Origin: Breznakia pachnodae
GTDB taxonomy: Bacteria; Bacillota_I; Bacilli_A; Erysipelotrichales; Erysipelotrichaceae
Assembly (NCBI RefSeq): GCF_030814225.1
Contig: NZ_JAUSUR010000003.1
Coordinates: 434,001-498,000, forward strand
Length of the DNA stretch: 64,000 nucleotides
Direction: 5' to 3'
Positions 56,109 through 57,533 of the stretch are shown here, in pieces. Position numbers and translations under genes: made by a program. Each line of letters starts with the position of its first letter. Within the stretch, counting starts at the first letter, position 1. The notes beneath the pieces were generated by a model that saw only the letters and a program-made list of their open reading frames with translations, had not been told where the DNA came from and made no database searches.

Positions 56109-57533
56109 TTATTGCTTTAGTTTTTTGATATATTCCTGAAACCAATAAAAACTATCTTTCTTATATCGTTTATTACTCCCAGTTCCGTTGTTATTCAAAT
56201 CTACATAAATATACCCATATCTTTTTTCCATTTCTCCTGTACTATCACTAACCAGATCAATTGGCCCCCAAGATGTATAGGCTAAAATATCTATTCCATC
56301 ATTTGCTGCCTCAATGACTGCATCAATATGCTCTTTCAAATAGTTAATTCGATTTATATCATGAATTTTCCCATCTATAAATTGATCATAGTTACCGTAC
56401 CCATTTTCTGCTATCATAATAGGTTTTTGATAAATCTGCCAGTATTCATTTAACGCATATCGTAATCCAGTAGGATCAATTGCCCAATTCCAAGGAGTAG
56501 TCTTTAGATAAGGATTTTGTTTCCTATTACCACTTTCATCATAAGTATGAGTGAAGTAATAACTAATTGCTAAGAAATCGGCTGTGTTATATTTTAAGAG
56601 AGATTTTTCTTCCTCTGTAACTTTGATATCAATATTGTTATCTTTAAAATATCTATAAATATATTTTGGGTAAATACCTCGAAGCAAAACATCTAAAAAG
56701 AAATAATTCCTTAGTTGATTTAATTGTGCAGCTTTAAAAACGGTTTTTGGATTACATGAATCGGCATATTGTAAATCACTAACATTCATAACTCCAATTT
56801 TGTTATTTGTGTTTATCTGATGTGCTAGTTTTGTTACTTTTGCACTTGCTATAAATTGATTATGTATTGCTTGGTATCGTGCTTGTTGCCAATTATCATG
56901 TTCTCCTTTTACTAAGCCTAAACTTGCAAAATCACCATGACTAACACCATCTTCTTCAAAAATTTCAATCATATTAATTTGGTTGAAAGGAATCCAGTAG
57001 TGTACTTTGTTGTTATACCTTTTAAATAAAATTTCAGCATAACTAACAAAGAAATCAATAAGTTTTTGATCAGTCCACCCTTTATAATTAAGAACTAGAT
57101 TTATTGGCATTTCATAATGTGATATTGTAACAATTGGTTCCATTCCATTAGTTATGATTTCGTCTATTAAACTATCATAAAAATTTAATCCTTCCTCATT
57201 AGGCTCTTCGTCATCTCCATTTGGAAAAATTCTAGTCCATGCAATTGAAAATCTGAAACACGTAAATCCCATTTCTTTTAATAATGCAATATCTTGCTTA
57301 TATGTATGATAGAAATCTATAGCTTTACGTCTTGGAAAATAAGATGATGTATCCTTCATCAATTTTATAATTTCTGCTTTTGTATGTCCCATTCCATAAA
57401 ATCTAGATGTATCAATTTCTTTGGGTTTTGGTTTTATATCCGCAATACTTATTCCTTTTCCACCTAAATTATATGCTCCTTCTGTTTGGTTTGCAGCAAT
57501 TGCACCACCCCATAGTATTTTATCTTTTGCCAT
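56109..57533 (-). CDS. GH1 glycosidase with acid/base Glu replaced by Gln (myrosinase-like)
   Basis: The 474-residue protein has the family N-terminus [17 protein letters not shown], the nucleophile in MIAENGYG (Glu376) and the 6-phosphate element [15 protein letters not shown]. The acid/base motif that reads TFNEIN in the island paralogues is PFNQIN here: residue 185 is Gln (codon CAA, plus-strand 56979-56981). Plant myrosinases carry the same Glu-to-Gln change and cleave thioglucosides, whose leaving group needs no protonation. A phospho-thioglucosidase activity is a reasonable hypothesis; loss of function is the alternative. The rest of the gene is intact. Confidence 0.9.

Follow-up and report, generated by a model that had tools for sequence, protein, structure and literature searches.

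A natural glutamine at the acid/base position defines a clade of bacterial GH1 6-phospho-β-glucosidase homologues

Results

The gene and its surroundings

We examined a window of 64,000 nucleotides, the whole stretch of DNA analysed, from Breznakia pachnodae (contig NZ_JAUSUR010000003.1). It holds a glycoside hydrolase family 1 (GH1) gene whose product has glutamine in place of the catalytic acid/base glutamate. The features at this locus are as follows.

52011..53504, minus strand: ordinary Glu-type GH1 6-phospho-β-glucosidase (AFNEIN), divergent from the PTS gene
53547..53593, plus strand: two direct repeats, GGTGCAAATGTTGTAAC and GGTGCAAATATTGTCAC, which may serve the PTS gene as operator
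53701..55065, plus strand: PTS IIBC of the Glc/sucrose/β-glucoside type, with no IIA domain
55078..55107, plus strand: terminator-like stem-loop after the PTS gene
55115..55975, minus strand: RpiR-family regulator with weak HexR/AlsR matches, in the same direction as the Gln gene and 133 bp downstream of it
56109..57533, minus strand: Gln-type GH1 6-phospho-β-glucosidase homologue, 474 aa
56217..56249, minus strand: 6-phosphate-binding loop, Ser429 to Tyr439
56406..56408, minus strand: codon of the invariant nucleophile Glu376
56979..56981, minus strand: CAA codon of Gln185, which replaces the general acid/base Glu
57598..57614, minus strand: weak site GTAACACTATTTGTAAC upstream of the Gln gene, similar to the candidate operator but not significantly so

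The earlier note had described a complete gene with Gln at residue 185 (PFNQIN) and a retained nucleophile and 6-phosphate-binding motif, and this description was borne out. The reading frame runs from ATG to stop on the minus strand, while many stops interrupt the plus strand, and residue 185 lies in the context WIPFNQIN. As the note had also said, the GH1 proteins encoded at 29106, 30600, 33538, 34985 and 45880 carry TFNEIN and the sixth, at 52011, carries AFNEIN. In an alignment with the solved enzyme LpPbg1, the active-site residues of which have been described (PMC3605045), Gln185 corresponds to the acid/base Glu180, Glu376 to Glu375, and Lys437 and Tyr439 to the phosphate ligands Lys438 and Tyr440. 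Gln16, His139, Asn184, Glu376, Trp422, Ser431, Lys437 and Tyr439 of the query thus match the glycon, nucleophile and phosphate residues of LpPbg1, all of which are retained.

Membership in GH1 (Pfam PF00232) is indicated by a profile match and a TIM-barrel fold. The nucleophile is a Glu in the ENG motif at the end of strand 7 (IMIAENGYG) in the query and in all 77 Gln-type proteins collected below. The acid/base, by definition a Glu in an NE[PI] motif at the end of strand 4, is Gln in the query and likewise in 77/77. The phosphate site of 6-phospho-β-glucosidases (EC 3.2.1.86) is present as Ser431, Lys437 and Tyr439, with the Lys and Tyr found in 77/77 and the Ser in 68/77. The position of LpPbg1 Ala431, where the absence of Trp indicates gluco over galacto specificity, is occupied by Asp430 in the query and by Cys, Ser or Ala in 72/77. 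The combination of a Gln acid/base with a Glu nucleophile is that of QE-type myrosinases. The NCBIfam 6-phospho-β-glucosidase models matched the query below their cut-off (496.6 vs 624 bits).

The gene had further been assigned to a PTS cluster and credited with an operator-like site of its own. The cluster stands in part: the IIBC gene at 53701, the RpiR gene and a second GH1 gene do adjoin it, but the association is loose and the IIBC protein lacks IIA. The operator claim fared less well, since the site at 57598-57614 matches the doubled site of the PTS gene at 13/17 positions and there are about 20 such places in the window, which gives a roughly 6% chance of one in the upstream region. As this similarity is not significant, a common regulon of the Gln gene and the neighbouring PTS gene was rejected. 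On its other side the Gln gene adjoins a gene for a PLP-dependent decarboxylase related to diaminobutyrate/tyrosine decarboxylases (57718-59130, minus strand), from which a LysR regulator gene (59245-60129, plus strand) diverges. Elsewhere in the window, positions 25-8265 hold a surface-protein-like open reading frame of 2746 aa, in which a domain of about 90 residues is repeated many times.

Gln185 defines a single, constrained clade

We aligned 164 full-length GH1 proteins, 77 with Gln and 87 with Glu at column 185, and built a maximum-likelihood tree without this trait column. The tree required exactly one change from Glu to Gln, on a branch with an SH-aLRT support of 100 and with no reversal, as compared with 54.8 changes expected with shuffled labels. 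Many Gln members had been recruited by a motif search, which could not have created the monophyly but could have missed Glu-bearing members of the clade. A ranking by similarity only, done in the genome of origin, placed seven Gln proteins as the best-scoring paralogues and a Glu protein next, with no Glu member inside. The check proposed earlier, whether Gln185 marks a conserved clade among GH1 homologues, was thereby answered in the affirmative with a single origin, and a private mutation or sequencing error was ruled out by the 77 Gln proteins forming one clade. The clade was placed beside bacterial 6-phospho GH1 proteins. Plant myrosinases lie outside the sample of this tree, and an origin of the Gln independent of theirs is inferred from the position of the clade within the bacterial 6-phospho type.

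The clade is both old and constrained. Its branch lengths total 23.2 substitutions per site and its lowest pairwise identity is 38%, while dN/dS between close pairs is about 0.02-0.06. Gln16, His139, Asn184, Glu376, Trp422, Lys437, Tyr439 and the stacking Trp350 (Trp349 of LpPbg1) occur in 77/77. These are ancient PTS-linked GH1 6-phospho-β-glycosidase homologues in which the catalytic acid was lost once and the −1 and phosphate sites are intact. The window gene departs from strongly conserved clade columns at 6 positions (clade median 1), and its branch length is not unusual; its closest clade mates (seven rows, support 99) include members of Lac-PTS operons.

The genome of origin (4.3 Mb) contains 59 GH1 genes, counted as 63 matches minus four N-terminal pieces, and eight of them have the NQ[IV]N motif. 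These GH1 genes, mostly of the 6-phospho type and accompanied by many PTS genes, represent an extreme expansion for β-glucoside use. Searches by motif and by protein placed Gln members in many genera of Erysipelotrichaceae; the motif was present in 69 of 273 genomes, although some motif hits are not GH1. Another family of this order also has Gln members, as do Lactobacillaceae (verified in part) and a few other Bacilli, and named records include Longicatena caecimuris, Lactobacillus kullabergensis, Listeria monocytogenes, Niallia taxi, Enterococcus gilvus and Enterobacter ludwigii. Sources of these bacteria include bee gut, milk, strawberry and soil. The Enterobacter gene is carried on a plasmid (one plasmid), and E. 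coli genomes yielded no counterpart of it, the only match being partial (66%). The GH1 proteins of an Enterococcus faecium megaplasmid, Paenibacillus, Selenomonas and Priestia, E. faecalis GenA, and those of E. casseliflavus and Listeria innocua were considered as Gln members and rejected, all being Glu.

The Listeria Gln gene is presumably lmo0917, judged by its neighbours (a formate transporter, a succinate-semialdehyde dehydrogenase and vga(G)), and we take lmo0915 to belong to the same operon. Expression of lmo0917 was increased in soil extract (PMC3179493) and that of lmo0915 in infected mice (PMC2679221), with no substrate named in either report.

Gene neighbourhoods across the clade

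Forty-six neighbourhoods were analysed, of which 44 were distinct. In 38/44 the Gln-type gene lies beside genes for IIB, IIC or IIA of a Lac/cellobiose-type PTS, and most of these units also encode a LicR-like PRD regulator; the exceptions include two bgl-type PTS settings (L227 and L152) and contig ends. The setting of the window gene, with an RpiR regulator, a Glc-family IIBC and no Lac PTS, is atypical and makes it an outlier of the clade. In about 36 the Gln protein is the sole glycosidase of its unit, so that it must hydrolyse if the operon is to work. It is paired with a Glu-type GH1 in five (L225, L228, L230, L235 and L236), and tandems of two Gln genes occur in L223, L229, L241 and further Bacilli genomes.

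Three of these pairings (L225, L228 and L230) are of one operon type, common to three genera, in which the Gln gene and a second GH1 gene lie under one Lac-type PTS; the second protein is a distant INEQ-type GH1 in L225 and L230. The pairing suggests a division of labour between the two glycosidases. In three Lactobacillaceae neighbourhoods (L203, L204 and L206) the Gln gene is split into two reading frames, perhaps because of a frameshift or as a decaying copy. In another member of this family (L211) the unit of Lac PTS, Gln gene and PRD regulator is followed by a P-loop kinase-like protein (9980-10477), reminiscent of NukS beside the sinigrin genes of Companilactobacillus farciminis; the two clusters were not equated, as the transporter type differs. 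Eight Gln operons of different families encode an integral membrane protein, YitT/YczE-like and some 200 aa long, which could be an exporter of the aglycone:

L225, 7984-8556
L216, 9987-10565
L228, 7951-8535
L240, 5281-5898
L209, 3574-4203
L230, 7489-8127
L210, 9828-10460
L233, 9642-10274

Changes on the aglycone side of the active site

In LpPbg1, Asn183 and Arg267 hydrogen-bond the glucose in the +1 site, and the loop after strand 4, which contributes to this site, has been named with it as a likely determinant of specificity (PMC3605045). The position of Asn183 is Leu or Met (residue 188) in 73/77 clade proteins, and that of Arg267 is Glu in 38, Gln in 25 and Asp in 4 (67/77). The loop after strand 1 has 33-37 residues in all 77 Gln proteins vs 23 in the commonest class of Glu proteins. 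A basic pair at 68-69 (PKR or PRR) is found in 72/77 Gln vs about 7/87 Glu proteins, and an acidic residue at 199-203, usually Glu200 (HESFNHLG), in 67/77 vs 10/87. We read these changes as a probable move from sugar aglycones toward hydrophobic or aromatic ones. As to charge, the acidic residues would speak mildly against strongly anionic aglycones and the basic pair mildly for them; with the Arg lost and an acid at 199-203, an anionic sulfated aglycone would not be obviously favoured.

Discussion

A proposed class of GH1 enzymes without a general acid

We favour, with moderate confidence, the view that the Gln clade is an acid-free class that cuts 6-phospho-β-glucosides with good leaving groups. 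In most of the operons it is the only glycosidase encoded, and the clade is under strong selection, from which a turnover of such substrates would follow; the Gln proteins are thus probably working catabolic enzymes rather than pseudoenzymes. A PTS would import a plant-type β-glucoside and phosphorylate it at C6, as the neighbourhoods suggest. The 6-phosphoglucosyl unit would be held as in the Glu relatives, Glu376 would attack C1, and the aglycone would depart unprotonated, since it is a thio, acyl-ester or acidic aryl group that leaves readily. Gln185 would then position water for deglycosylation, as in the QE-type plant myrosinases, in which the water is positioned rather than deprotonated. 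In canonical GH1 6-phospho-β-glucosidases, Glu180 protonates the leaving oxygen and afterwards activates water (PMC3605045). A Gln enzyme would be expected to act efficiently on those aglycones alone that can depart without such help.

From the residues of the active site we infer that the natural aglycones are non-sugars and good leaving groups, the substrates being thio-, acyl- or aryl-glucoside-6-phosphates; the defensible description of the class names thio-aglycones or others that leave readily. Since the same kind of change in a relative, Gan1D-E170Q, gives what is described as a catalytic mutant, the enzymes would probably act poorly on ordinary O-disaccharides. Several observations weigh against this reading. 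Lac-type PTSs usually serve cellobiose, lactose and chitobiose, which need the help of an acid; the acid gained at 199-203 could be a relocated one; and the window gene is an outlier and the gene is split in the three Lactobacillaceae neighbourhoods mentioned above.

Contained in this wider reading is the phospho-thioglucosidase that the earlier note suggested, taken here in the strict sense of an enzyme with 6-phosphorylated glucosinolates or other S-glucosides as natural substrates. The substitution is the one seen in classical QE-type myrosinases (PMC6691170), nearly all clade members carry the basic pair at 68-69, and a pathway of this type exists, because C. farciminis converts sinigrin to allyl isothiocyanate through sinigrin-6-phosphate by means of a PTS and a GH1 enzyme (PMC8660893); the same paper notes homologues in Eubacterium sp. 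3_1_31, which lives in the gut. Glucosinolate use by the Gln clade is therefore possible by analogy. Gln is not needed for it, however, since the plant EE-type myrosinases PEN2 and PYK10 cleave glucosinolates with Glu at the acid/base site (PMC6691170), as do the Glu enzymes BglA and AscB of E. coli (cited in PMC8660893). In addition, the clade has exchanged its +1 Arg and acquired acidic residues, and its habitats and the eight copies in one genome extend beyond the chemistry of the Brassicales. We regard this narrower proposal as doubtful.

The remaining explanations differ in what the lost acid would mean. The acid in the loop after strand 4 might have taken over as a relocated acid/base, so that ordinary O-glucosides are cleaved, and both its enrichment among Gln proteins and the contribution of the loop to the +1 site (PMC3605045) fit such a role. 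Ten Gln proteins (e.g. those in L226 and L230) have no acid there, several of the ten being in intact operons, and its position shifts by 1-2 residues, which makes a relocation unlikely. That the protein is a pseudoenzyme, or a regulator that binds a sugar phosphate without catalysis, would agree with the disappearance of a catalytic residue that is invariant elsewhere and with the Glu GH1 genes in the five mixed operons, but is hard to reconcile with nucleophile, glycon and phosphate residues kept in 77/77, with the purifying selection and with its being the only glycosidase in most PTS operons; we consider it quite improbable. Least credible to us is a transglycosylase or phospho-glucosyl transferase, in which a covalent intermediate, long-lived without a base, passes to an acceptor other than water. 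Such a reaction fits the known chemistry of retaining enzymes that lack their acid/base, and the Gln+Gln tandems and Gln+Glu pairs would suit it; the PTS context is catabolic, and no acceptor-related gene recurs in the neighbourhoods.

Significance

If the reading as an acid-free class with good leaving groups is extended to its fullest form, bacteria would have arrived independently at the trick of the myrosinases, in a large class that diversified (eight copies here) and uses Lac-type PTSs to harvest thio-, acyl- and acidic aryl-glucosides of plants; a PTS-linked activation of glucosinolates by gut bacteria would be part of this. We offer this extension tentatively, as something that may well prove too broad. 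The acid/base Glu of GH1 is treated as defining and its change to Gln is a standard means of inactivation, so that a Gln kept through 23 substitutions per site under strong purifying selection must reflect either another chemistry of the substrates or another mechanism. Should glucosinolates or phenolic acyl glucosides be the substrates, the operons would be candidates for the release of bioactive plant aglycones by bacteria of the gut, bee gut, soil and plant surface, and the Gln of the NQ[IV]N motif would be a readable marker for it. The substrate annotation of GH1 genes labelled 6-phospho-β-glucosidase may mislead where they carry this motif, as the lmo0917-like genes of Listeria do. The open-access full-text literature that was searched yielded no description of a Gln-type bacterial GH1 clade. 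The clade represents a fixed natural loss of the general acid within the GH1 6-phospho subfamily, in parallel with the plant myrosinases.

Comparison with known systems

The query resembles the solved GH1 6-phospho-β-glucosidases (LpPbg1, 3QOM; SmBgl, 3PN8/4F79; E. coli BglA, 2XHY; the B. licheniformis enzyme, 6WGD; S. pneumoniae BglA-2, 4IPL) in fold (TM about 0.86-0.90), in sequence (41-46% identity), in its nucleophile, −1 site and phosphate Lys and Tyr, and in its PTS context. All five have a Glu acid/base, whereas the clade has Gln, a longer strand-1 loop, K/R68-R69 and Leu/Met188, and differs at the +1 Arg. The classical QE-type plant myrosinases likewise combine a Gln acid/base with a Glu nucleophile in the GH1 fold (PMC6691170), but are of plant origin and act on unphosphorylated substrates. 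The PttS/PbgS system of C. farciminis shares uptake and 6-phosphorylation by a PTS followed by GH1 cleavage (PMC8660893), yet its transporter is a single-chain IIBCA, unlike those of the clade. Lactobacillus acidophilus LBA0725/0726 and LBA0225/0227 also pair a PTS with GH1, for salicin, esculin and amygdalin (PMC5698550), with transporters of different types. The same kind of substitution was introduced into the GH1 6-phospho-glycosidase Gan1D, whose catalytic mutant E170Q was crystallised with cellobiose-6-phosphate; there the Gln was engineered, whereas in the clade it is natural and conserved in 77 proteins.
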